DNA of 34,381 bases from Verrucomicrobiia bacterium (GTDB lineage Bacteria > Zixibacteria > MSB-5A5 > DSPP01). Shown piece by piece: positions 1,075-28,817 of this stretch. The notes below the pieces were generated by a model. It had not been told where the DNA came from and searched no databases. It saw only the letters and a program-made list of their open reading frames with translations. Numbering within the stretch: position 1 is the stretch's first letter; each line of letters begins with the position of its first letter. The translations under genes and the position numbers were made by a program. Location of the stretch: assembly GCA_035574275.1 (NCBI GenBank), contig DATLYY010000036.1, positions 1 through 34,381 on the forward strand, in the 5' to 3' direction.

Positions 1075-1362
1075 ATGGCGACCTACATCATTCTTTCCCG
1101 TTTTTCGCCGGAGGCGTTCCGCGAGCCGAAGGATTTCAAAAAACTGGCCGAGCAGGTTTCCGCCAAAATCAAAGCGGACTGCCCGGGGGTGAAATGGCAG
1201 GGGAGCTGGGCCACGATGGGGCAGTACGACGTGGTGGATGTGGTGGAAGCCAACGACCCGAAGGAGGTGGAACGGGCGGCGATGATTATCCGCGCCTACG
1301 GGCATTCCACGACGGAAACACTCTTAGCTACGCCGTGGAAGGAGTTTTTGGGGATGCTGTAA
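1075..1362 (+). CDS. GYD-domain protein
   Basis: The 95-aa protein matches the GYD family, small alpha/beta proteins of unknown biochemical role with a ferredoxin-like fold. Typical features are the N-terminal strand TYIILSRFSPEAF, the central GSWATMGQYDVVDVVEANDP block and the C-terminal ETLLATPWKEFLGML. The family's namesake Gly-Tyr-Asp appears here as GQYD. ATG 1075 is chosen because a strong AAAGGAGG lies 5 bp upstream; an in-frame ATG at 1024 lacks such a site. The last 32 bases of the gene are repeated perfectly at 2532-2563, beyond the next gene, and imperfectly at 2675-2707. Confidence 0.85.
   Translation: MATYIILSRFSPEAFREPKDFKKLAEQVSAKIKADCPGVKWQGSWATMGQYDVVDVVEANDPKEVERAAMIIRAYGHSTTETLLATPWKEFLGML
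1330..1361 (+). repeat. 32-bp direct repeat, copy A (inside GYD gene 3' end)
   Basis: These bases encode the GYD C-terminus ATPWKEFLGML up to the stop codon. An identical 32-base copy lies at 2532-2563 in the same orientation, so the two copies bracket the minus-strand metallopeptidase gene. Confidence 0.9.
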
Positions 1363-1373
1363 GCCAGCAAGAA

Positions 1374-2435
1374 TTACTCGTTCAGGTTGCCCAAAATACC
1401 CGACAACGCGCGCTGTTCCAACTCCGTAAGGTTATTTTTTTTGCGGATTTCGATTTGAGAACTATCTGAATTCATCTCCAAAACCAAACCCGCGTTCGAT
1501 AAATACTGAACAACCGGTAGGCGCTCCGTTCCATCGACATACTTTTCAAAAAAGTCGTCGTTTGCGCCGCTTGTTAGCTGCCTTGCAATTTTTTTAATTT
1601 CCTTCAAGTCATAACGCTTATTGGTACTATTGTATTTTTTAAATAGAATTTGCATCAAGTCGTCCAAGCTTTTTTCATTTTTCGTGGCATTGCGAACCAT
1701 GGCGTCCAAGCATAGTCCAATCCAGAGCCCGCCACCTTCCACCAATCCGGTATGCTGTTTTTTATCCAACCCCGCTTCCCGCATGGATTGGCGGCCGGTT
1801 CCCTTGTCGGCGAAATACAATTGTAAAAACTTTCCCAACGCCCAGAAAAACCATTCTTCATCGATAGCATTCATTTGCTTCAGCGCTTTGAGCGCATAGT
1901 ACTGGGAGACGCCTTCGTTAAACCACTGTTCCCTTTCACTTGAATATCTAAATGACTTGGAATTCCAAAGATGAAATATTTCGTGGGCCACGATCCCCTT
2001 CCATCTAAATTGATCAAACGAGTCCGGTTTTGGATTGAAGGTTAGTTCGAGACGCTTTGCGTAAGCTTCTCCATTCCATTCTTCAGACTGACTTACTTCG
2101 ATTGTGAGATGGGTGAATTTTTCTCCCATCGTCTGCTCCGGCAGACTGCCGAAAAGTTTTATGTAATAATCAAAGGAGGCCTTCGTTACGTGAATTATCT
2201 CTTCTTTTAGGGTTACTATGTTGGCACCCTGCAAAACAAGGTTTATGGACAGACCATTTACCGTCACCGCGACCCGCTCTGTTACTTGCTCTGCATCAAG
2301 GACCCCGTTGGATTGACTAACTGCTTCCGAGGCAAGCGATTCTTTTGAGTTGAAGGAATTTAGGACCGGCAGAATTAACAAAAAAAAGGCAAATACCCGG
2401 ATTCGTATTTTCCGTTCCCAAATTATTAACTTCAT
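1374..2435 (-). CDS. Secreted gluzincin metallopeptidase (M1/M61-like)
   Basis: The product is 353 aa and probably exported. It has a basic N-terminus followed by a hydrophobic stretch (VFAFFLLILPVL) and a plausible signal-peptidase region near SLASEA. The catalytic zinc site is explicit: HEIFH at residues 151-155, then exactly 18 residues to the third ligand E174 in WFNEGVSQYYAL. HExxH-x18-E is the gluzincin signature of M1-type and M61-type peptidases, and the context GIVAHEIFHLWNS is closest to M61 glycyl aminopeptidases. The protein is shorter than a full M1 or M61 enzyme and no PDZ domain is seen. ATG 2435 is chosen because AAGAGG precedes it; a longer frame to 2519 is not supported. The gene is bracketed by copies of the GYD 3' end. 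The upstream minus-strand neighbour carries peptidase-propeptide domains. Confidence 0.8.
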   Translation of the reverse strand: MKLIIWERKIRIRVFAFFLLILPVLNSFNSKESLASEAVSQSNGVLDAEQVTERVAVTVNGLSINLVLQGANIVTLKEEIIHVTKASFDYYIKLFGSLPEQTMGEKFTHLTIEVSQSEEWNGEAYAKRLELTFNPKPDSFDQFRWKGIVAHEIFHLWNSKSFRYSSEREQWFNEGVSQYYALKALKQMNAIDEEWFFWALGKFLQLYFADKGTGRQSMREAGLDKKQHTGLVEGGGLWIGLCLDAMVRNATKNEKSLDDLMQILFKKYNSTNKRYDLKEIKKIARQLTSGANDDFFEKYVDGTERLPVVQYLSNAGLVLEMNSDSSQIEIRKKNNLTELEQRALSGILGNLNE

Positions 2436-2531
2436 TGCCTCTTTTCCAATACGGGGTGGGCGTGCGATGGTTTCATGAAAATGGCGAGGTAAGGGGGGAG
2501 GGGATAGCGTCAGCGCCAATTTGCTTTCGCC

Positions 2532-2563
2532 ACGCCGTGGAAGGAGTTTTTGGGGATGCTGTA
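2532..2563 (+). pseudogene. 32-bp direct repeat, copy B: orphan GYD 3' end
   Basis: This is a perfect copy of bases 1330-1361 and would encode TPWKEFLGML then a stop. Directly upstream the reading frame has decayed: there is a TAG at 2505 and no GYD-like residues beyond about three codons. Only the tail of the gene is present. Confidence 0.8.
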
Positions 2564-2674
2564 GTTTTACCCTCTGCGCCGAGGTTTTTGCAGAATCTCT
2601 TCGCGTCCCTCTTGGTAGGGGGGGCAGGGTCTGGTCAGCACCGCGGAGACTCCATGTCCGCGACTCTTTTCACC

Positions 2675-2707
2675 ACGCTGTGGGAATTGTTTTTAGAGAT
2701 GTGGCAG
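2675..2707 (+). pseudogene. Diverged third copy of the GYD 3' end
   Basis: About 23 of 33 positions match copies A and B, including GTTTTT and the spacing to the stop. The translation TTLWELFLEMWQ-stop parallels ATPWKEFLGML-stop. It is an older remnant of the same duplicated gene end. The bases between 2564 and 2674 hold no reading frame I can assign. Confidence 0.5.
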
Positions 2708-2729
2708 TGATGCATTTTTTTGTTAAGCA

Positions 2730-3833
2730 TCAATTTATAATCTCTTGGATTAATTCGGTCCTGTGAATTATCCTACCACTAAGTGCATCGATATAATATT
2801 CCCGTCCCACCGGAGAGTGGTCAACATAAATTTCGACCAACCAAGCCAGATAGTATTTTTTGTCGAATGGGAATACAATCAATGAAGCCGATGGACTTCC
2901 ACGTTTTTCCATACTTTGATAATCGGTTGGAAATTTGAGGTCTATCAAAGCTTTTCTGATAGCGGCAACTGAATCAATTTTGGGCACTGCCGAAATATTT
3001 ATCTCGGTGTGAAAACTACCGTCAAAGTCTATTTTACCAGTAGGAGTAATGCTTGCCCTAAGGCCACCACCTGATACCTTCACCCCTTTATATTCTTGTT
3101 GAAACTCCATTCTGCGACCTCGTAGTTTTACTTTCAATTCGGATCGAGGATCATCGAGCCCAATCATTTTCTTGTACGTTTCAAGAAATTCATAAATCAT
3201 TTCGATGGGGTCAGTAGTTGCGAACTTTTTCAATACAGTGCCTTGAAATGAAAAGGCAATGCCTATTGCCGTATCGACCTGACCTCTCCCGCGAAAGTCA
3301 TGCTGAACGAAATCGTAGAATGCTTTTATTTGAAGGTGTTTCTTAGAGTTTTGCTTGATTGTGACGACAAACACAAATGGCAACGTTTCAGGACCGAAAT
3401 AAGCTCGATATTTTCCCAAGGGGAAATACGCATCGTGCAAGGAATTCACGGGAGTATGGCTTTCTTCATAATTTAGGCGTTCAATTGGGGTAACTCCTCC
3501 GATGGAATCACCAGGCTTAAGATTGAAGGATTTAAGCGGTATGGAAACGTCAGGATGTCTGTAAACGTTATTATTCTCGTCGCGAATTGTCCACCAAAAG
3601 GGTTTAGAAAAAGTGAACTTGACGGTTTCTTGGGAGATATTTTTCATCCAAAATTCGCCCTTAATGTTTTCTAACAATAGAAAGGTATCTCTGGGAAGAG
3701 AAACCCTACACTCAAATTTAGCGCCATCCTGCTCGATTTGGAATGTATGGATTTGTTCTGGCATTGCAGGGCTGCTAAAGAGGTTTACTACTAAGAAAGT
3801 TAAGAATCCAGCAAAGAATTTGCGTTTAAGCAT
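2730..3833 (-). CDS. Secreted BsuPI-like / orphan FTP-PepSY propeptide protein
   Basis: The 367-aa protein has a signal peptide at about residues 1-23 (KRKFFAGFLTFLVVNLFSSPA). Residues about 27-157 look like an Ig-like domain of the BsuPI proteinase-inhibitor type: a strand ending in N-x-S (WMKNISQETVKFTF), then WTIRDENNNVYR, then a LKPGDS turn and a PLGKYRAYF strand. Residues about 205-275 resemble the FTP domain of thermolysin-type propeptides (FQQEYKGVKVSGGGLRASI, then GKIDFDGSF). Residues about 283-360 resemble PepSY (IRKALIDL, YYLAWLVEIYV, YYIDALSGRII). In M4 peptidases FTP-PepSY precedes the catalytic domain, folds it and inhibits it; here the chain stops after PepSY. The start at 3833 gives the signal peptide, but the ribosome binding site is weak. 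miaB ends 49 bp upstream on the same strand. Confidence 0.75.
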   Translation of the reverse strand: MLKRKFFAGFLTFLVVNLFSSPAMPEQIHTFQIEQDGAKFECRVSLPRDTFLLLENIKGEFWMKNISQETVKFTFSKPFWWTIRDENNNVYRHPDVSIPLKSFNLKPGDSIGGVTPIERLNYEESHTPVNSLHDAYFPLGKYRAYFGPETLPFVFVVTIKQNSKKHLQIKAFYDFVQHDFRGRGQVDTAIGIAFSFQGTVLKKFATTDPIEMIYEFLETYKKMIGLDDPRSELKVKLRGRRMEFQQEYKGVKVSGGGLRASITPTGKIDFDGSFHTEINISAVPKIDSVAAIRKALIDLKFPTDYQSMEKRGSPSASLIVFPFDKKYYLAWLVEIYVDHSPVGREYYIDALSGRIIHRTELIQEIIN

Positions 3834-3882: not shown

Positions 3883-5322
3883 TTAGTTGTTCGGGAAAAA
3901 TGGCTCTTTTTCACCAACACCCGCCCCAAGTAGCGTATGGCTGGTTGCGCGGGAGATGGGGACAGGGGTTTTGTCGCCGGGGCGAATTTCCCCCTTGGGT
4001 TTAAAGACGACGGTTTTGAATTGGGGGGATTTGCCGAACCAAGTGCCATCGCCGTTGCCATTTCCAGTTTTCTTTGATGGGCCTTCGGCCAAAACCTCCA
4101 CCGTTTTGCCAACCCAGGCCTGATTTTTCTCCAAAGATATTTTTTCCTGCAGGCCAATCACCGACTGCAGCCGGCGGAGCTTTTCTTCTTCCGGAACGGT
4201 TCGACTACGCTCACCGCAAGTCGGGTTCTCCCATTCATACGCTTTGGTGCCCGGGCGGGGGGAATATTTGAACAAAAAGGCGCTGTCGTAGCGGGTTTGG
4301 GCCAGATAGTCGTAAGTGGCTTGGAAGTCCGCTTCCGTTTCCCCCGGAAAGCCGACGATGATATCGGTGGAGACGGCCAAATTGGGGACGGCATTGCGAA
4401 AGGCGGAGAGAAGCATGTCGTAATATTCAATCGTGTAGCGGCGTTTCATTTTCAAAAGCACCGGATTGGAGGCGGACTGCAAAGGGAGATGCAGTTGCGG
4501 ACAGATTTTGGGATTTTCGGCCATCGCCCCAATCGTTTCCCAGTCGAAATCGACCGGATGGGGGGAAGTAAAACGGATGCGCTCGATGCCGTCGATTTCC
4601 GCTGCTTTTTTCAAGAGCGCGGCGAAGGAGTTGCGTTTTTTGGGAATTCCGTCTTCGGGTATAAGCGGCACCGAGGAACCGGATTTGCCATTTTCGGCAA
4701 GAATTGAAGCGTCTTTGTAGGCGTTGACGGTCTGGCCCAAGAAAACAACTTCTTTGTACCCTTCCGCCGCCAGTTTTTCCAACTGGTTCAGAATGTCGGC
4801 CATCGGCAGGGAGCGTTCCCGGCCGCGGACGTAGGGGACTATGCAGAAGGTGCAGAATTTGTCGCAGCCGCGCATTATCGAAACCCAGGCGCGGATGCCG
4901 GATTCCCGGAGGGGATGAATGTCGGCATAGGTCTCCGTTTTGGAAAGCTCGACTTCCAAGTACGGCTCGTCCGTATGCTCGGCAATCAGGCGGGGGAGGG
5001 TGCGGTAGCCATCCGGGCCGGCGACGATATCGACGGCAGGGATTTGAGAGGTGACTTTGGTTTTGATATGCTGGGCCATACAGCCCAAAACGCCCAAGAC
5101 CAAATCCGGCTTTTGGTGCTTGAGACGGGCGAGTTCGAAAAGGCGGCCCAAAACCCGCTCTTCAGCCCGCTCGCGGATGGCGCAGGTGTTGACGAAGATG
5201 ACGTCAGCTTCTTCCAGCGCGTCTGCGCTCCGGTAGCCGGCCTGGGTCAAGATGCCGCCGACGGTTTCGGAGTCGGCGACGTTCATCTGGCAGCCGTAGG
5301 TTTCTACAAAGAAGGACTTCAT
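3883..5322 (-). CDS. miaB: tRNA-2-methylthio-N6-dimethylallyladenosine synthase MiaB
   Basis: The 479-aa radical-SAM methylthiotransferase makes ms2i6A37 in tRNAs reading UNN codons, using two [4Fe-4S] clusters and SAM in the cytoplasm. The N-terminal domain supplies the auxiliary-cluster cysteines C11 (ETYGCQMN), C47 (NTCAIRE) and C81 (GCMAQ). The radical-SAM CxxxCxxC motif is C153-C157-C160 (RGCDKFCTFCIVPYVRGRERS). A C-terminal TRAM-like region follows (VGKTVEVLAEGPSKK). A linker of about 30 residues after GQTVNAYKDA (ILAENGKSGSSVPLIPEDG) is longer than in E. coli MiaB. The start at 5322 follows a GGGAG that is the 3' arm of a 9-bp hairpin at 5334-5355. The gene lies 48 bp after the RAYT-like gene on the same strand, so the two may be cotranscribed. 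Confidence 0.95.
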   Translation of the reverse strand: MKSFFVETYGCQMNVADSETVGGILTQAGYRSADALEEADVIFVNTCAIRERAEERVLGRLFELARLKHQKPDLVLGVLGCMAQHIKTKVTSQIPAVDIVAGPDGYRTLPRLIAEHTDEPYLEVELSKTETYADIHPLRESGIRAWVSIMRGCDKFCTFCIVPYVRGRERSLPMADILNQLEKLAAEGYKEVVFLGQTVNAYKDASILAENGKSGSSVPLIPEDGIPKKRNSFAALLKKAAEIDGIERIRFTSPHPVDFDWETIGAMAENPKICPQLHLPLQSASNPVLLKMKRRYTIEYYDMLLSAFRNAVPNLAVSTDIIVGFPGETEADFQATYDYLAQTRYDSAFLFKYSPRPGTKAYEWENPTCGERSRTVPEEEKLRRLQSVIGLQEKISLEKNQAWVGKTVEVLAEGPSKKTGNGNGDGTWFGKSPQFKTVVFKPKGEIRPGDKTPVPISRATSHTLLGAGVGEKEPFFPNN

Positions 5323-5370: not shown

Positions 5371-5835
5371 TTAAGCAGGAACTTCGGCTTTTTCTCCGGC
5401 CAGAATAGTTGCGCCCAGCTTTTGCATTTCGGCAATCGCCTCCTCCAGCGAATCATCCACCGTCACTCCCTTGGTGAAATAATTCCCCATCCAGAGCCGC
5501 TTCCGTTCCCGCAGTTTATACTCGATTTCGGTGTCCTGCATAAAAAATTTCAGCATCCGGTCAAAAACCCGCACGTCGGGCGGGTTTTGGGCCAACAGCT
5601 CCAGCCGGGCGGGCTGGAAGGCGTAGGCCAATAGTTTTATCCCGAAGCGGTCGGCCTCCGCCAAAAGCGATTTTTCGGCGTAACCCTTCCATTCCTCATT
5701 CACAAACACCTCGCGCCGGTTTTTGGCGGCAATCGAGACCCGCCGGGCCTGATAGGGGCGGGCTTTTTTAACCGGCCGTTTCGGCTCGGGGGCTTTTTGG
5801 GCCGCCGGCATATCCGGCCAGAAGTAGCGGTTCAT
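5371..5835 (-). CDS. Y1/RAYT transposase-like protein lacking the HUH motif
   Basis: The 154-aa protein aligns by eye with REP-associated tyrosine transposases (Y1_Tnp fold). The matching blocks are NRREVFVNEEWKGYAEKSLL, EADRFGIKLLAYAFQPARLELLAQ, FDRMLKFFMQ, and LWMGNYFTKGVTVDDSLEEAIAEM. In RAYTs the strand after 'LLAY' reads MPNHVHLLL, with the two histidines forming the metal-binding HUH site. Here those positions are R77 and E79, so nicking activity is not expected. The N-terminal 30 residues are basic and Pro/Ala-rich. ATG 5835 is chosen because AAAGGAGGGAGG lies directly upstream. The next gene on the strand is miaB. A domesticated nucleic-acid-binding role is possible, and the assignment rests on motif order only. 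Confidence 0.6.
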   Translation of the reverse strand: MNRYFWPDMPAAQKAPEPKRPVKKARPYQARRVSIAAKNRREVFVNEEWKGYAEKSLLAEADRFGIKLLAYAFQPARLELLAQNPPDVRVFDRMLKFFMQDTEIEYKLRERKRLWMGNYFTKGVTVDDSLEEAIAEMQKLGATILAGEKAEVPA

Positions 5836-5947
5836 CCTCCCTCCTTTGCTAAAGACGAACTCGGCCAAGCACTCTCGTAATCCATGCCCACTGCTGTTAA
5901 GGAGGGGATAATATAAATCTTTACCCGCAAAGGGCAAATCGGGGCAG

Positions 5948-18267: not shown

Positions 18268-21200
18268 ATGTCACGATGTAGCAATGTCTTTCGAACTACG
18301 GTCCTGCTTCTGGCCGTATTGACGCTCGGATTGACGACGGTGGCTTTTGGCAACGTCATCGTCGATTTCAGGCAGTCGGCCAACAATGAGACCAACGGGA
18401 CTATCCAGGGGCTCGGAAATGTGCATTGGATTAATTCCATTGTTCAGTCGAGCAATTCCCGATACTACGAGGGGATGTCCAACTTTCAGCGGGCTCTCTT
18501 TGCACAAACTCCCGCCACCACCGGCAATATCCACACCCTGACTTTAAGCCACCAGTTCACCAAGGGAGGCATTCATGCCTACGATTTCTTGACCTCTTGG
18601 GCGCAGGGTATTGCCGACGATGGAGCCGCCTTGGGAGTTCCCATCCAAATCAATCAGTGCGGCATTGAGATTGGCCCGCCGAACACCCTGGTGGACTCTT
18701 GCAATGCCCTCCACAGCGCCTTTTTTGTGGATGTTGACATTCCGGATGACCCGTATATCAGTAAGGATGGCTCCACAGCGGCCAAAATCGCCGCCTATGA
18801 GGCGATCCGGGGGAACCGCACCGTCCGGATTTACGGCAACGCGCCCATCAGCAATGCCTCGATGACAGTCAGCCACGATGTGGCCAACGGAGCGGACAAT
18901 GGGGATTCGTACGCCAAGTACGTGTTGCAGTGGACCTCCAGTTCCAGCCAGATTCTGGTCGAAATGGCCGGCCATTTGGCCATTTCCGGCGACGGCACCG
19001 GTATGACCTGGGGCCCGGGGTTGGGTTCTTCCCAGATTAATGGCGGCCCCTATCACTTCAAACTGGATGCATTGGGCGGCGCTTTGGCAGCCAACGGCAC
19101 GCAGACCCAGGTCACTTCGCTCGGTTCGCAGGACAACCAAATCAAGGGAGCGGACATTTTGGTTCCCTGTCCGACCTGCGCGGTTTCCGGGCCGACCGGG
19201 CCGCTCTGCCCCGGCTCCGCCGCCCAGAGCTACTCGGTCTCCATCACCGGGACCTGCACGAACCAGTCCGCCATAACCTGGAGTTTGAGCAACAACACGT
19301 CCGGGGCTTCCTTCAATGGCGGTAATACTGGCACTTCGGTCTCCGTGAACCCCGGCTCTTCCTGCGGTTCTTTCACGCTGACCTCCAGTTTCACCTGCAG
19401 CAATTGCATCGATCCGGTCACCTGCTCCATCGATGTGACCGTGCAGGACAACACGGCGCCGGTGATTTCGGGCGTGGGCGCCAACACAAACATTGAGTGC
19501 CCGGCGACCCCGGTCTTTTCCAATCCGACCGCCTCGGATGACTGCGACCAGAGCCCTGCGCTTACGTATAACGACGTGACAACTCCGGGCAGCTGCCCGC
19601 AGGAGTACTCGGTCACCCGCACTTGGACGGCCACGGACGACTGCGGCAACAGCTCCACGGCCTCCCAGACCATCAACGTGCAGGACAATACGGCGCCGGT
19701 GATTTCGGGCGTGGGCGCCAATGCAAACATCGAGTGTCCGGCCACGCCGGTGTTCAGCAATCCTTCGGCGGCGGATGCTTGCGACCCGAATCCGTCCTTG
19801 ACCTACAACGACGTGACCACTCCGGGTTCTTGCCCGCAGGAGTACTCGGTCACCCGCACCTGGACGGCGACGGATGCCTGCGGCAACTCTTCGCAGGCCA
19901 GCCAGACCATCACGGTGGAAGACAACACCCCGCCGACTTTGAGCGGCCAGGGTGCCGATGCCACCATCGAGTGCCCGGCTACTCCATCCTTCACGCCGCC
20001 GACGGCTTCGGACGCTTGCGATCCGAACCCGGTTATCAGCTTCAGCGACCAGACCACCCCGGGTGCCTGTCCGCAGGAGTACAGCGTGACGAGAACCTGG
20101 ACGGTGGTGGATGCCTGCGGCAACCAGGGCACACCGGTTTCCCAAACGATTACCGTGGAGGACAACACCGCTCCGGTCATCTCTGGAGTGGGTGGTAACG
20201 CCACCATTGAGTGTCCGGCGACTCCGGTGTTTAGCACTCCCTCTGCTTCGGATCTCTGCGACCCGAACCCGTCCTTGACGTTTAATGATGTCACCACGCC
20301 GGGTTCCTGTCCGCAGGAGTATTCGGTTACGCGTACTTGGACGGCTACGGATGCCTGCGGCAATTCTTCGCAGGCCAGCCAGACCATCACGGTCGAGGAC
20401 AACACCGCTCCCGTAATCTCGGGTGTGGGTGGTCCGCAGACCATTGAGTGTCCGGCCACTCCGGTGTTCAGCAATCCGAGCGCTTCGGATCTCTGCGACC
20501 CGAGCCCGTCCTTGACGTTTAATGATGTCACCACGCCGGGTTCCTGTCCGCAGGAATACAGTGTTACCAGAACCTGGACAGCTACGGATGCCTGCGGCAA
20601 CGTGTCGGCTCCGGTTTCCCAGACGATTACGGTGGAGGACAACACGGCACCGGTCATCAGCGGGGTGGGCGGCAACCAGACGATTGAATGTCCGGCGACG
20701 CCGGTCTTCAGCACGCCTTCGGCCTCCGATGTTTGCGATCCGAATCCGTCCTTAACATTTAATGACGTGACCACGCCCGGTTCCTGTCCGCAGGAGTACA
20801 GCGTTACCAGAACCTGGACGGCTACGGATGCCTGCGGCAATTCTTCGCAGGCCAGCCAGACCATCACGGTCGAGGACAACACGGCACCGGTTATCAGCGG
20901 AGTGGGCGGCAACCAGACCATTGAATGCCCGGCCACCCCGGTGTTTTCCAACCCGACCGCTTCGGATCTTTGCGACCCGAACCCGAGCTTGACGTTCAAC
21001 GACGTGACGACTCCGGGCTCTTGTCCGCAGGAATACAGCGTAACGCGCACTTGGACGGCCACGGATGCCTGCGGCAATTCGTCTTCTGCTTCCCAGACCA
21101 TTACGGTGGAGGACAATACTGATCCGGTGTTGACGGCTTGCCCAGCTCCAATCGTGGTCTGCGAGGGTTCACCGATTAGCTTCACCCCGCCGACCGCCAC

Positions 21201-22698
21201 GGATGCCTGCGATTCGGATGTTCCCGTGGTCTGCACGCGCAGCGACGGCCAGGGCTTGGGAGACCCCTATCCGATTGGGACCACCACGATTACCTGTGTG
21301 GCCGCCGATGATTGCGGGAATTCCGATGATTGCAACTTTACGGTAACGGTGAACGCCAACCCGGTCTGCAGCATCAGCGATGGACCGGGCTTCGGCACAC
21401 CCATCTGCGCCGGCTCCTCGACGCCTATCGCCGACCTCTTCTGCGGGCCGGCCGGTATGGCTTCTTACAGCTGGTCAGTGGATTGCGGCACGATCAGCGG
21501 CTTTTCCACCGAACAATGTGTGGACTGGACACCGCCGGCCGTGGGCGGCACCTGTACCTTCACTTTGACCATCGTGGACGGCAACGGCTGCACAAGCACC
21601 TGCACGCGCCAGATTTCGGTACCCAACCCAACGCCGTGCGTGCTCGTTCCGCCAGCCACCCTGCCGGTGTGCGGCTCGACTGGCAACAGCTACTGCGGCC
21701 CGGCCGGCTTTGCCGATTACCAGTGGTCCTTCAGCTCGCCCGATTGGGTGATAACCGGCGGTCAGGGAACTTCGTGCATCACCTACACGGCGGGGAGTTC
21801 CGGCCCGGCCACCTTGCTTCTGGATGCCACCAACCAGTTTGGCTGCCATTCCAGTTGCGACGTGCCGATCGACTGCCAGCCCGGCTTTGAGGGTTGCACC
21901 CCGGGTTTCTGGAAAAACCACACCGGCTTGTGGAATCAGACGAGCGATGCGGTCTCCCAGTGCGTGGCTTCGGCCATTGCCGGTTTGGGTGCTCCTTACA
22001 GCGGCAACGGCACCACAGGTTCCTCTTTCCGCACGACCTTCGGTCTTACGGGAAGCGAGATGCTGGAAGCCGGTTTGAATGCCAACCTCACACTCCAGCA
22101 GGCCATCAACCTCGGCGGCGGCGGCTTCCAAAAGCTGGCCCGCCATGCCGTGGCCGGTCTTTTGAGCTCCTGCCAGGTCAACTACACGTATACCACTTTG
22201 CAGGTACTGACCCAGGTGCACGAAGCCATCATCAATCTGGAAGCGGAGCCATTGGCCACCCAACTGGCCGCGGCCAACAACCTTCCACATGATCATTGTG
22301 AGAGCGGTTTGCCAGCCGCAGCCCCCGTGGCATCGGGAAGGGATCTCTTGAACGTCGAGGATGATAACTTCGCGCTGGATCCGGTAGCCGTCGAAAAGGC
22401 GGCAGGCAGCGCTTTGCCGACCGTGTTTGCCCTGCGCGGCAGCTATCCCAATCCGTTCAATGCTTCCACCCAGATCAACTTCGCCCTGCCGCAAGCCGGC
22501 ACGGTGCGGTTGGTTATCTACAACATTCTGGGGCAGCCCGTGCGTACTCTTCTGGATGGCGACCAGCCGGCCGGGGAGCGTTCGGTACTCTGGAACGGGA
22601 CGGACAACAGCGGTAGCAGTTTGTCTTCCGGGGTTTACTTCTACAAGATTATGTTCAACGGCCAAGTCAAAGTCGGCCGGATGAACCTGATTAAGTAA
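18268..22698 (+). CDS. Giant secreted HYR-repeat protein with T9SS-type sorting domain
   Basis: The 1476-aa protein begins with a signal peptide (FRTTVLLLAVLTLGLTTVAFG). An N-terminal beta-rich domain (to about 300) is shared with the 24522 gene product (YYEGMS, AYDFLT, GGPYHFKLDALGG). Residues 394-948 hold seven HYR-like units of 79-80 aa, each with four cysteines (IEC, CD, SCPQEYSVTRTW, CGN). A classical HYR domain (949-1030) and PKD/Ig-like domains (GMASYSWSVDCGTI) follow. A CTPGFWKNH domain starts at about 1209 and runs to about 1350. The C-terminus (about 1390-1476; YPNPFNASTQINFALP, LVIYNILGQPVRTL, GVYFYKI) is a type-A sorting domain of type IX secretion. The likely role is a disulfide-rich surface or matrix protein. 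GGGAGG precedes ATG 18268. Confidence 0.9.
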   Translation: MSRCSNVFRTTVLLLAVLTLGLTTVAFGNVIVDFRQSANNETNGTIQGLGNVHWINSIVQSSNSRYYEGMSNFQRALFAQTPATTGNIHTLTLSHQFTKGGIHAYDFLTSWAQGIADDGAALGVPIQINQCGIEIGPPNTLVDSCNALHSAFFVDVDIPDDPYISKDGSTAAKIAAYEAIRGNRTVRIYGNAPISNASMTVSHDVANGADNGDSYAKYVLQWTSSSSQILVEMAGHLAISGDGTGMTWGPGLGSSQINGGPYHFKLDALGGALAANGTQTQVTSLGSQDNQIKGADILVPCPTCAVSGPTGPLCPGSAAQSYSVSITGTCTNQSAITWSLSNNTSGASFNGGNTGTSVSVNPGSSCGSFTLTSSFTCSNCIDPVTCSIDVTVQDNTAPVISGVGANTNIECPATPVFSNPTASDDCDQSPALTYNDVTTPGSCPQEYSVTRTWTATDDCGNSSTASQTINVQDNTAPVISGVGANANIECPATPVFSNPSAADACDPNPSLTYNDVTTPGSCPQEYSVTRTWTATDACGNSSQASQTITVEDNTPPTLSGQGADATIECPATPSFTPPTASDACDPNPVISFSDQTTPGACPQEYSVTRTWTVVDACGNQGTPVSQTITVEDNTAPVISGVGGNATIECPATPVFSTPSASDLCDPNPSLTFNDVTTPGSCPQEYSVTRTWTATDACGNSSQASQTITVEDNTAPVISGVGGPQTIECPATPVFSNPSASDLCDPSPSLTFNDVTTPGSCPQEYSVTRTWTATDACGNVSAPVSQTITVEDNTAPVISGVGGNQTIECPATPVFSTPSASDVCDPNPSLTFNDVTTPGSCPQEYSVTRTWTATDACGNSSQASQTITVEDNTAPVISGVGGNQTIECPATPVFSNPTASDLCDPNPSLTFNDVTTPGSCPQEYSVTRTWTATDACGNSSSASQTITVEDNTDPVLTACPAPIVVCEGSPISFTPPTATDACDSDVPVVCTRSDGQGLGDPYPIGTTTITCVAADDCGNSDDCNFTVTVNANPVCSISDGPGFGTPICAGSSTPIADLFCGPAGMASYSWSVDCGTISGFSTEQCVDWTPPAVGGTCTFTLTIVDGNGCTSTCTRQISVPNPTPCVLVPPATLPVCGSTGNSYCGPAGFADYQWSFSSPDWVITGGQGTSCITYTAGSSGPATLLLDATNQFGCHSSCDVPIDCQPGFEGCTPGFWKNHTGLWNQTSDAVSQCVASAIAGLGAPYSGNGTTGSSFRTTFGLTGSEMLEAGLNANLTLQQAINLGGGGFQKLARHAVAGLLSSCQVNYTYTTLQVLTQVHEAIINLEAEPLATQLAAANNLPHDHCESGLPAAAPVASGRDLLNVEDDNFALDPVAVEKAAGSALPTVFALRGSYPNPFNASTQINFALPQAGTVRLVIYNILGQPVRTLLDGDQPAGERSVLWNGTDNSGSSLSSGVYFYKIMFNGQVKVGRMNLIK
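19447..21111 (+). repeat. Seven in-frame tandem HYR-like repeat units (237/240 bp)
   Basis: Units start at 19447, 19684, 19921, 20161, 20398, 20638 and 20875. Five are 237 bp, and two are 240 bp with an extra codon in the loop after CGN (N-Q-G-T-P-V-S and N-V-S-A-P-V-S). Amino-acid identity between units is very high, while many third positions differ. Some blocks are DNA-identical between alternate units. The unit after 21112 is a diverged HYR domain. Confidence 0.9.
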
Positions 22699-23943: not shown

Positions 23944-24521
23944 ATTTTAGGAGGAATGATTAAGTGCATATTTTTGCGCACAAACAGGGTATTGTATGCA
24001 AGGTAATTAATTAGCGGTTTTTTTGCTCGGCATTCTTTTGCAAACCAGATAAGACTATGATTGAAAATGTGTTAGATTTAAAATCAGTCCCTTTTCAAAG
24101 CTAACTTTTTGGGGCGCAAGGAGATTGGCATTGTTGTTGCTTAACCTGAGAAAGCCAAGTTGTATTCGGCTCTTGGTTTGTTTGAAAATGAAGGCTTGTT
24201 GAGGAGCTTTTAGTAAAAACTTTTCGGGTGAGTTTTTCCGGAAGTTTCTAAAAGTTAAGAGGCCAAAATCTTAGGGGCCGGGTCCGAAATCGGAGCCCCG
24301 GTTAGATTGAGGGAATAAAAGTAATTGATCGCGGAAAGTTTTTTCGCGGCGGTGCAAGAGGTGCCGCCCTATATAAAACCTGTCTTTTTACTTCAAAGGG
24401 GGGCTTGCACGTGCTGACGCGCGATGACCAAGAAGAAAATCCATCTATTTCCGACTGTAGTGAACTGTTAACCAAGTTTAACCACGCACCATCCACCATC
24501 CAAAAAAGGGAGGGTATTTCA
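23944..24521 (+). promoter_or_regulatory. Long AT-rich to structured leader of the second giant gene
   Basis: No gene is seen in this ~580-bp stretch. The first part is AT-rich, with no promoter I can fix confidently. The second part has four consecutive inverted repeats. These are AACTTTT/AAAAGTT (24218-24224, 24250-24256), GGGGC...TCCG-AAAT-CGGA-GCCCC (24274-24299), CGCGGAAA/TTTTCGCG (24330-24348) and GGCGGTGC/GTGCCGCC (24348-24368, with wobbles). None has a U-tract, so they form a leader and not a terminator. TATATAAAA at about 24371 is a possible -10-rich site. GGGAGGG precedes ATG 24522. Confidence 0.4.
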
Positions 24522-27500
24522 ATGTCCTCGTGTCGAACTATTTCCATTTTTAAAACCATTCTGATTGCCACGGCCATCCTGTTTGCCTTCGGGCTGGCCG
24601 GCGCCTTCGGCCAGGCAACCGTAACGACCGACAAGATGGATTATCATCCGGGGGATACGGTTATCATCACCGGCTCCGGCTGGCAGGCGGGGGAAACCGT
24701 GCTTTTGGAAATCGTCGAATCCCCGTTTATTCATCCGGCCGAAACGCTCTTCGCCGTGGCCAGCGGCTCCGGCGATATTTACAATAATCAATACATCATT
24801 CAGCTGCATGATTTGGGACAGACCTTCACATTGACCGCCATCGGACAATCCTCCGGCATGACGGCCAGCACGATGTTTACGGATGCCCCGCCGGCGGCCA
24901 ATTTGGATCAATACCGCAACGGTTCGGCCGATGCGCCGATCACCACCGGCGGCAACTGGGTGAACGGCAACGCCGGGGCGGAAAACTCGCACTACGTGGA
25001 AGGAATGTCGATTCCCTACCGCTGCCGGATGACCGATTTGCCCACCGGCACGACCATCGCGCTCACATTAGGATACGACGTCAAGCACAGCGATGCGCAT
25101 GCCTTGGATTATCTGACTCATTTCAACCGGCTGGAGCCGCATACCTTCGCCACTCACACGACACCCGAACCGCTCAATCCCTTGGCCGGTGTCACCGGCG
25201 TTTCGGCCACGGTTTCGACTTTTACCATTCCGGCTCCCAGTTCCGCCGGTTCTCCGGTGCCCGGACAGCCGACCACCAGCTATAACAACCTTCCGGCCGG
25301 TGAACGGCTGATGACTTTGTACGGTGGCACCATCGACAGCATCAAGTACGCTACCCAGGGAAGCTTAACGGCTTCCCAGTCCGAAACACAGATTACCGTC
25401 TATTTCCGCGCTGACGGTTTGACCGCCGTATTGTCCTGGGGCGGGCATATCGGCAGCCGTTTGGACTGGGGTTATGAACCGGATGGCACACCCCGTTCGG
25501 CGGGCGGCATCAGCGGTTCTCCTTATCATATGCGCCTGATCGATTGGAATCTCAATAATCTTGGAAATCAAGACCGCTCGCTCAAGGCGGACGCGGTGGC
25601 CCCCCCCTGTGACATTGTTGGCCCCAGCCCCGTTTGCGGCGGCTCCACCAATCAATACTGCGCGCCGGGCGGCACGGGCGTTACCTATAGCTGGAGCATT
25701 ACCGGCAACGGTACCATCGTCGGTTCCACCACCGGCCAGTGCATCAACGTGCAGGCCGACGCCTCTGGTTCGTATACTGTCACCGTAACGGCGACCCAGT
25801 CCAACGGCCCTTCCAGCACCTGCACCAAAACAGTCACGATTTCTCCTTTGCCGATTTGCAGCATAGACGGAGCCGATTCCGTTTGTCCGCAGTCAAGCAA
25901 CAACCACTGCGGCCCGGCGGGTGCGGCTTCGTACGAATGGTCCATTTCCGGCAACGGCACTATCAGCAGCTCGACCACCAGCCAGTGCGTTTCGGTTCTG
26001 GCCGGTTCCAGCTGCAACGCCCCTTATACTTTGACCTTGAAGATTAAAAACGCCGACCAGTGCAGCAGCCTCTGTTCAAAAACCGTTCAAGTTGTGGACA
26101 CGACCAAGCCGACCATCAGTTGCCCGGGCCCCGTCACGGTGGAATGCCTGGCGGACGTGCCGCCGGTAAATATCGGCTCAGTTACCGCGTCGGATAACTG
26201 CAGCGGCGTCACGGTGACCCACGATGGGGACGTGGCCTCCGGTTCCTGTCCGAAGATTATCACCCGTACCTACAGAGCCACCGATGCCTGCGGCAATTTT
26301 GCCACCTGCACCCAGACTATAACGGTGGACGATAATACCCCGCCGGTGCTGGCGGGCTGTCCGCAGAATGCCTCTTTGCAGTGCTATGCAGACGTTCCGG
26401 CACCAGCCGTGGTGACCGCGACCGACAACTGCGACGGAGTAATTCAGGTTCAATTTAATGAGACCCAGTCCAATCCGGGTTCAAGCTGCAACAATATTAT
26501 TACCCGGACTTGGACGGCCACCGACGCCTGTGGAAACGTGGCCACCTGCCAGCAGGTTATCACGGTCAACGACAATACGGCTCCGATCGTCACCTGCCCG
26601 GCCAATATTGATGTGAATAACGACCCGGCCACCTGTGATGCGGTTGTGAATTTCACCGCCACCGCCACGGACAACTGCGCCCCAACTCCTTCGGTGGTTT
26701 GCGTGCCGCCTTCCGGCACGGCTTTTCCAGTGGGGGTCACGACCGTTACCTGCACGGCCACCGATGACTGCGGTAACTCCAGTTCTTGTTCATTTACAGT
26801 GACTGTTCGGGATAACGAAAGGCCGGTTTTGGTGAACTGCCCGGATCCGGGTCCGCTCACCGTGGAGTGTGGCGTTCAGTTGGTTCCCCCTCCCGATCCC
26901 ACACCGCAGGATAATTGTGATCCCAATCCAATCATTGCCTTCCGGCAGGATTCGATTCCCGGCAATTGCCCGCAGGAGTATACGCTCATCAATACTTGGA
27001 TTATCACGGATGCTTCGGGTAACAGCGACAGCTGCAAACAGACAATAATTGTGCAGGACACCCAGGCCCCGACGATCTCGGGGGTGGATGCCGGTTACCG
27101 GGTGGAGTGTCCGGCGGTTCCGGTCTTCTCCAATCCATCGGCGGCCGATCTGTGCGACCCGAACCCGGGCTTGACCTTTGTTGATGTGACCACTCCGGGG
27201 AACTGTCCGCAGGAGTACAGCGTGACCCGCACCTGGACGGCTGTGGACGCCTGCGGCAACTCGGCCACGGCTTCGCAGACCATCAACGTGCAGGACGTCA
27301 CGGCGCCGGTTTTGACGGCTTGTCCGGATAACATCGCGGTTTGCGCGGGTGCTCCGATTAGCTTCAACCCGCCGACTGCTACGGATAACTGTGACGGGGA
27401 TGTGCCTGTGACCTGTACCCGCAGCGACGGGCAGGGCTTAGGTGCTCCTTATCCGGTCGGCACCACCACCATCACCTGTGTGGCAACCGATGATTGTGGA

Positions 27501-28817
27501 AATTCGGACGACTGCAGCTTCATGGTGACGGTATACGAGACCCCGGCCTGCAGTATTAATGAGGGTCCCGGTTTCGGAACGCCCGTTTGCGCCGGTTCCG
27601 GTGTGCCGCTTGTCAGCCTGTTCTGCGGGCCGGACGGCATGGCGTCCTACAGCTGGTCGGTGGACTGCGGCACCATCGACGGTTCCAGCACCAGCCAGTG
27701 CGTTTCCTGGATTCCGCCGGCGGTGGGCGGCACCTGCACCTTTACTTTGACCATCGTGGACGGCAACGGCTGCATCAGCACCTGCACCCGGAGCATCTCG
27801 GTGCCCAACCCGACCCCCTGCGTTTTGGCCCCTCCGTCAACCCTGCCGGTCTGCGGCTCTTCGGGCAACATCTATTGCGGGCCCGCGGGGTTTGCCAACT
27901 ACAACTGGACAATCAGCTCTCCCGGCAACGACTGGGTGATCACCGGCGGGCAGGGGACCTCGTGCATCACCTACACGGCGGGGCTTTCCGGCCCGGTGAC
28001 CATCCTTCTGGATGCCACCAACAACTTCGGCTGTCATTCCAGTTGCGACATCAGCTTCAACTGCACACCGCAGTTCGAGGGCTGCACCCCCGGCTTCTGG
28101 AAAAATCACACCCGTCTCTGGGATCAGGCCGGCGACCCGGTCTCCCAGTGCGTGGCCGCCTCCATTGCCAGCCTGGGTTCCCCCTACGGCGGGAGCGCCA
28201 CGACCGCATCCCTCTTCCGGATGACCTTCGGGCTGACCCAGTCGCAAATGAGCGCGGTCGGTTTGAACCCGAACCTCTCGCTGCAACAGGCCATCAACCT
28301 GGGGGGCGGCGGCTACCAAAAGCTCGCCCGCCACGGCGTGGCGGCCGTGTTGAGTTCCTGCGCGGTGAACTACACCTATTCCACCACGCAGGTTTTGACG
28401 ATGGTTCAAAACGCCATCGTCGACAGGCAGCCGGAGCCCACGGCCCAGCAATTGGCGTCTGCCAATGAACTGACCCACATCAACTGTCCGGGAGGCCCGC
28501 AGCCGGCCAGCCTGGCCGCTCTTTTGGCCCAGGCGGGTGAGTTCATGCGCGGCGACCTGAATGGCGACGGCTCCTTCACCCCGGTGGATGTGGTTACGCT
28601 GTTGAACATCGTGTTCGGCGGGATGCAGCCGACCCAGTCGGTTTGCGCCGCCGATTTGAACCGGGACGGCCTGTTTTCCCCGTCGGACGTCGTGGCCGGC
28701 CTTTCGTGCATCTTCGGCGGTTCCGGCGAGGTCTGCGGGGAGCTTTGCGTGGATGCCTCGGGCGAGACCGAGGAGCTCCCAATGGATTCCAATCCGGTCG
28801 TTTCGCCGAAGAAATAG
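24522..28817 (+). CDS. Giant secreted HYR/PKD-like protein with dockerin-like C-terminus
   Basis: The 1431-aa protein has a signal peptide (IFKTILIATAILFAFGLAGAFG). An Ig-like domain follows (VTTDKMDYHPGDTVIITGSGW), then the N-terminal domain shared with the 18268 protein (HYVEGMS, ALDYLTHF, GSPYHMRLIDWNLNNLGNQDRSL). Two PKD-like Cys-rich domains (about 365-525) precede about six HYR-type units, some identical to those of its paralog (CPQEYSVTRTWTAVDACGN). A PKD-like pair and a CTPGFWKNH domain (from C1188) follow. The C-terminus carries two Ca-binding loops (G1344-DLNGDG and A1377-ADLNRDG), each followed by a DVV helix, as in dockerin type I, then a Pro/Glu-rich tail of about 30 residues. 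There is no T9SS sorting domain. A GGGAGGG supports ATG 24522 over an earlier in-frame GTG/ATG frame at 24405. Confidence 0.9.
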   Translation: MSSCRTISIFKTILIATAILFAFGLAGAFGQATVTTDKMDYHPGDTVIITGSGWQAGETVLLEIVESPFIHPAETLFAVASGSGDIYNNQYIIQLHDLGQTFTLTAIGQSSGMTASTMFTDAPPAANLDQYRNGSADAPITTGGNWVNGNAGAENSHYVEGMSIPYRCRMTDLPTGTTIALTLGYDVKHSDAHALDYLTHFNRLEPHTFATHTTPEPLNPLAGVTGVSATVSTFTIPAPSSAGSPVPGQPTTSYNNLPAGERLMTLYGGTIDSIKYATQGSLTASQSETQITVYFRADGLTAVLSWGGHIGSRLDWGYEPDGTPRSAGGISGSPYHMRLIDWNLNNLGNQDRSLKADAVAPPCDIVGPSPVCGGSTNQYCAPGGTGVTYSWSITGNGTIVGSTTGQCINVQADASGSYTVTVTATQSNGPSSTCTKTVTISPLPICSIDGADSVCPQSSNNHCGPAGAASYEWSISGNGTISSSTTSQCVSVLAGSSCNAPYTLTLKIKNADQCSSLCSKTVQVVDTTKPTISCPGPVTVECLADVPPVNIGSVTASDNCSGVTVTHDGDVASGSCPKIITRTYRATDACGNFATCTQTITVDDNTPPVLAGCPQNASLQCYADVPAPAVVTATDNCDGVIQVQFNETQSNPGSSCNNIITRTWTATDACGNVATCQQVITVNDNTAPIVTCPANIDVNNDPATCDAVVNFTATATDNCAPTPSVVCVPPSGTAFPVGVTTVTCTATDDCGNSSSCSFTVTVRDNERPVLVNCPDPGPLTVECGVQLVPPPDPTPQDNCDPNPIIAFRQDSIPGNCPQEYTLINTWIITDASGNSDSCKQTIIVQDTQAPTISGVDAGYRVECPAVPVFSNPSAADLCDPNPGLTFVDVTTPGNCPQEYSVTRTWTAVDACGNSATASQTINVQDVTAPVLTACPDNIAVCAGAPISFNPPTATDNCDGDVPVTCTRSDGQGLGAPYPVGTTTITCVATDDCGNSDDCSFMVTVYETPACSINEGPGFGTPVCAGSGVPLVSLFCGPDGMASYSWSVDCGTIDGSSTSQCVSWIPPAVGGTCTFTLTIVDGNGCISTCTRSISVPNPTPCVLAPPSTLPVCGSSGNIYCGPAGFANYNWTISSPGNDWVITGGQGTSCITYTAGLSGPVTILLDATNNFGCHSSCDISFNCTPQFEGCTPGFWKNHTRLWDQAGDPVSQCVAASIASLGSPYGGSATTASLFRMTFGLTQSQMSAVGLNPNLSLQQAINLGGGGYQKLARHGVAAVLSSCAVNYTYSTTQVLTMVQNAIVDRQPEPTAQQLASANELTHINCPGGPQPASLAALLAQAGEFMRGDLNGDGSFTPVDVVTLLNIVFGGMQPTQSVCAADLNRDGLFSPSDVVAGLSCIFGGSGEVCGELCVDASGETEELPMDSNPVVSPKK

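Follow-up and report, generated by a model that had tools for sequence, protein, structure and literature searches.

A stand-alone FTP-PepSY protein of probable M4-propeptide descent next to an M61/M1-like zinc protein: neighbors by insertion more probably than enzyme and inhibitor

Do a zinc peptidase-like protein and a free-standing propeptide-like protein encoded by adjacent genes form an enzyme and its inhibitor? This question is raised by a locus in a 34,381-nucleotide stretch of bacterial DNA (contig DATLYY010000036.1, positions 1 to 34,381; hereafter the window). The initial annotation proposed that one protein, P0002, uses its FTP-PepSY module to fold and inhibit the other, P0001, a non-M4 gluzincin, in trans. 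Both minus-strand open reading frames that it described are present, and the locus comprises the following features.

1075–1362, plus strand: GYD-domain gene; duplicates of its 3′ end flank P0001
1324–1361, plus strand: GYD 3′-end copy 1, 38 bp, inside the gene
1374–2435, minus strand: P0001, an M61/M1-like gluzincin of 353 aa that consists of the catalytic domain only and is degenerate apart from the zinc triad
1971–1985, minus strand: HEIFH zinc-binding motif of P0001, with the third ligand, E174, at 1914–1916
2526–2563, plus strand: GYD 3′-end copy 2, 36/38 identical, followed by ancestral downstream sequence common to the sister species
2644–2701, plus strand: GYD 3′-end copy 3, degenerate, abutting the 3′ end of P0002
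2730–3833, minus strand: P0002, a 367-aa, apparently secreted stand-alone FTP-PepSY protein (from sequence, profiles, and tree)
2748–3314, minus strand: residues 174–362 of P0002, FTP-PepSY propeptide module
3339–3755, minus strand: residues 27–165 of P0002, N-terminal domain of unknown kind, not confirmed as BsuPI
3883–5322, minus strand: miaB-like gene, bordering the variable gap on the side opposite the GYD gene

Both genes are AT-rich, with GC contents of 0.44 and 0.40 versus 0.56 for the window. Both proteins begin with a hydrophobic segment resembling an export signal, as read from the sequence and not with a predictor, and P0002 is thus probably secreted.

We examined the domain content of P0002. 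Searched as a single sequence, it gives Pfam matches to PepSY (0.0038) and FTP (0.0089) that both lie under the cutoff. Its C-terminal half gives a 42% match (5e-28) to the propeptide of an M4 enzyme encoded on another contig (C24) of the same genome, an 1118-aa protein to which Pfam assigns FTP, M4, and M4_C. A profile built from 15 relatives of P0002 retrieves M4 and M36 proform structures from the PDB, including 5a3y (7e-23), 3nqy (4e-13), 4k90 (3e-10), and pro-elastase 8cr4 (1e-8). These matches establish the FTP-PepSY module predicted by the initial annotation, as does the presence of an FTP motif followed by PepSY with the conserved [IV]DAxxG. P0002 shares this two-module sequence of ~180 residues with the propeptides of M4 and M36 peptidases such as Mcp02 (3nqy/3nqz), pro-elastase (8cr4), and fungal mep (4k90). 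However, whereas those modules precede a catalytic domain in cis, P0002 is a separate, apparently secreted protein that carries an extra N-terminal domain and stops after PepSY, and a search for a catalytic remnant downstream of it found none. The absence of a catalytic domain was therefore described correctly at the outset.

The N-terminal domain had been read as BsuPI-like, an assignment that is not confirmed: neither Pfam nor NCBIfam yields a BsuPI match even at E ≤ 10. Residues 1–184 have no credible relative in 129 genomes of the phylum, the matches to the N-terminal domain returned by that search being judged due to chance. A scan of GTDB with P0002 alone as the query gave no match, and a single-sequence fold model has a pLDDT of 34, too low to read a fold.

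P0001 is a gluzincin without a propeptide, as first described, in which HEIFH occupies residues 151–155 and E174 follows after exactly 18 residues. A match to either M61 or M1 had been expected; the Pfam match to Peptidase_M61 passes the cutoff (34.8 versus 22 bits), and that to M1 falls below it. P0001 also has the fold of peptidase family M61 (glycyl aminopeptidase) and, in common with it, the HExFHxWN and WFxEG blocks. The best PDB matches of its fold model (pLDDT 77, low at residues 1–48 and 103–135) are 4fgm and the M61 structures 8j9c and 7xyo. In an alignment of P0001 with 37 M61 relatives, the zinc triad (HExxH and Glu) is invariant in all 38 rows. Other features of the family are missing from P0001. 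The GGLEH substrate-binding motif, seen as a G-L-E-H block in 33–36 of 36 relatives depending on the column, is absent, and the transition-state Tyr of YYxKG, present in 37/37 relatives, is replaced by Glu233. The spacing from HExxH to the Glu ligand is an M1-like x18 instead of x29, for lack of the M61 insertion, and the N-terminal beta domain and C-terminal PDZ domain are both missing, so that the 353 residues comprise the catalytic region only, compared to about 580–630 aa in M61. The loss of these hallmarks makes aminopeptidase activity doubtful.

No close relative of P0001 was found in 132 genomes of the phylum. Its nearest relatives in GTDB are M61 proteins of 23–34% identity, most of them from outside the phylum and almost all full length. 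We infer that P0001, an M61/M1-like zinc protein consisting of the catalytic domain only, was acquired separately, and we regard its activity as a peptidase as doubtful. Several M61-like proteins of 580–600 aa in the class lack HExxH altogether (L022, L023, and L025–L029) and are apparently inactive relatives.

The surroundings of the two genes were compared with the corresponding site in the sister species. There, miaB and the GYD gene also flank a gap, which contains neither P0001 nor P0002 but a gene whose 497-aa product matches HATPase weakly and has HEVAH as a C-terminal motif (L055 2286–3779, G001:C37); PADLOC returned no defense match for this protein. The final 38 bp of the GYD gene recur in the window on the far side of P0001, identical in 36 of 38 positions, and the sequence after this second copy is the one that directly follows the GYD gene in the sister species. 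P0001 therefore sits between the GYD gene and its ancestral 3′ flank. The third, degenerate GYD 3′ end abuts P0002, and none of 500 shuffles scored as high. A search for the 38-bp repeat elsewhere in the genome did not find it. Because each gene adjoins its own copy of the GYD 3′ end, two insertions are likely, and the simplest reading would be two successive insertions at this point. The window and the sister-species locus together have the appearance of a hot spot for insertion at the 3′ end of a gene, with no visible integrase. Next to miaB, at 5371–5937, lies a 188-aa open reading frame with a weak, sub-threshold match to IS200-like (Y1) transposases, which is kept in the sister species.

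These observations bear directly on the proposed pair. The two genes are directly adjacent on the same strand, both products are apparently secreted, and P0001 combines the lack of a propeptide with a thermolysin-like helical zinc core, all of which would suit an enzyme with an inhibitor supplied in trans. However, the GYD-tail copies lie between the genes, the sister species has neither gene at this site, P0001 has lost catalytic motifs, and P0002 is of M4-propeptide descent, as described below. Nor does the arrangement recur: an FTP-PepSY open reading frame within 6 kb was found at none of the 80 nearest M61 loci, some of which were cut shorter by contig ends, and pairing with M61 is thus without support beyond this one locus, an outcome that the initial annotation had itself named as refuting its proposal. 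Taken together, these results make it very improbable that P0002 is the foldase and inhibitor of P0001. We consider it reasonably probable instead that both genes were inserted, most likely separately, into a hypervariable gap between miaB and the GYD gene, and that P0002 descends from an M4 propeptide. For the window, our analysis is mainly a correction, in that adjacency is ascribed to insertion and the likelier target of P0002 is encoded elsewhere in the genome.

The descent of P0002 was traced in a tree of FTP-PepSY modules with 53 rows. P0002 falls in a clade of its genus (98/93) that also includes the cis M4 propeptides of its own genome and of the sister species and two other stand-alone copies. 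Nearest to it are the propeptide of the only M4 enzyme of its genome, on contig C24, and a stand-alone copy on contig C64 (98/68), although P0002 sits on a long branch (1.06) and SH-aLRT support for its exact sister relation is no more than 68%. Across the tree, the stand-alone state requires at least six changes on well-supported branches, indicating that the propeptide has been released from its enzyme repeatedly, although some of the copies are fragments. P0002 thus probably derives from the propeptide of the single M4 (thermolysin-type) peptidase of its lineage and gained a new N-terminal domain. Searches of the genome found neither an M36 peptidase nor a second M4, and the sole M4 carries its propeptide in cis; P0002 consequently has no propeptide-less M4 or M36 partner at home.

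Descent from an M4 enzyme would also fit a less constructive history, in which P0002 is the decaying 5′ part of a former M4-type proenzyme that lost its catalytic part by recombination at the GYD tail. P0002 stops right after the PepSY module and near a GYD-tail copy, and in another family several of the stand-alone copies are fragments produced by frameshifts. On contig C64 of the P0002 genome, the stand-alone copy (L034 6207–7452) retains the signal region of the M4 enzyme and is followed by a weak dockerin-like match. It has the look of an M4 gene with an internal deletion, of which the propeptide remains, and P0002 could accordingly be a remnant as well. We nevertheless regard this as rather unlikely, since the frame of 367 codons is intact, begins with a signal-like segment, includes an added N-terminal domain absent from the cis enzymes, and is not followed by any remnant of a catalytic domain.

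If P0002 is a functional protein, the likelier target is the C24 M4 enzyme rather than P0001, as the best candidate by descent. The propeptide of M4 peptidases helps the catalytic domain to fold. In M4 zymogens it also binds the catalytic domain and is an intramolecular inhibitor (PMC4282423), so that a free FTP-PepSY protein would act in trans. P0002 would then most likely bind the active-site cleft of an M4 catalytic domain, with the C24 enzyme as the prime candidate, and may serve either as an inhibitor or as a folding helper. Regulation of peptidases in trans by stand-alone PepSY proteins is a long-standing proposal (Yeats 2004, quoted in PMC4282423). The proteins discussed there (group 2 of Yeats 2004, SspA, and YpeB) resemble P0002 in being secreted, in lacking a catalytic domain, and in being proposed as trans-acting regulators; as described there, however, they consist of PepSY repeats only, whereas P0002 contains both FTP and PepSY and branches within the M4 propeptides. 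This difference also weighs against a role for P0002 as a PepSY regulator of an enzyme other than a peptidase, in the way that YpeB acts on SleB. Stand-alone PepSY proteins such as YpeB do inhibit non-peptidase enzymes (PMC4282423), and the N-terminal domain could direct P0002 to another target, but with the FTP domain and the placement in the tree we judge such a role improbable.

Finally, we surveyed related genomes for propeptides encoded apart from their enzymes. Among 61 M4_C matches in 97 genomes of the class, 51 have a cis propeptide, including one (G100:C88) that was rejected as a propeptide-less candidate once its divergent cis propeptide was seen, and six genes without a visible propeptide were set aside as cut by contig ends. 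The remaining four lack a propeptide (two on G031:C39 and one each on G031:C117 and G057:C210), and directly after every one of them, on the same strand, lies a stand-alone FTP-PepSY gene (L043, L140, and L046). In contrast, no stand-alone copy was found on the contig of any of 54 cis enzymes, comprising 51 M4 and three M36, the latter from a search of 12 genomes only. Fisher's test gives p = 2e-6, with the caveat that the four loci come from one family and are not independent. At all four the enzyme comes first and the propeptide second, an order that is not derivable from a simple frameshift of a proenzyme. The first M4 of L043 and the M4 of L046 are full length and have a signal-like start of their own, and by eye the M4_C His and the zinc ligands are in place; the remaining two M4 open reading frames are shortened or interrupted. 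A stand-alone FTP-PepSY gene beside a propeptide-less peptidase, as the initial annotation described for the window, does occur in these relatives, where the partners are M4 and not M61 enzymes.

An M4 gene of this type and the gene after it may constitute a natural split thermolysin proenzyme. Tentatively, FTP-PepSY modules in this class might have been freed as diffusible regulators, with the propeptide supplied in trans in these two genomes and with P0002 acting on the M4 enzyme of its own genome. With two intact, propeptide-less M4 enzymes, each ahead of a secreted FTP-PepSY gene, the idea can be put to a direct test. L043 1031–7552 (G031:C39) and L046 2453–6157 (G057:C210) are three-gene modules in which the propeptide-less M4 peptidase and the secreted FTP-PepSY gene are followed by a secreted companion, a protein with no Pfam match that appears cohesin/dockerin-like by eye.

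The survey had initially counted nine propeptide-less M4 or M36 genes with an adjoining stand-alone propeptide; inspection of the junction DNA removed five, leaving the four M4 loci of two genomes. All five are M36 proenzymes, from G026, G044, and G049, in which the frame is shifted or the gene broken. Three (L038, L040, and L144) are not true splits, the frame being shifted at long runs of C or G within the linker; L147 is a broken gene with the end of the PepSY module in its second open reading frame; and L146 is fragmented. The homopolymer runs lie in the propeptide–catalytic linker at ~5090–5210 in L038, ~5140 in L040, and ~1640 in L144, and the frame breaks at these runs could be due to phase variation, decay, or assembly error.

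A lone propeptide domain as an inhibitor in trans is established for other peptidase classes. Stand-alone propeptide-like inhibitors are known for subtilases (the malaria subtilisin propeptide-like protein, PMC6993865) and for cathepsins (CTLA-2, crammer, and BCPI, family I29, PMC4089206). In each case a single propeptide domain inhibits a related peptidase, a layout that P0002 would share by analogy, with the difference that these inhibitors act on subtilases and cathepsins whereas P0002 is of the metallopeptidase-propeptide type. The literature searched, which excluded most subscription journals, yielded neither a metallopeptidase counterpart of these inhibitors nor a description of a natural M4 partner for a stand-alone PepSY protein. 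Elsewhere in the window, 18268–22698 and 24405–28817 encode two large secreted proteins with many repeats of 237–240 bp, HYR-like by eye, and similar C-terminal parts.
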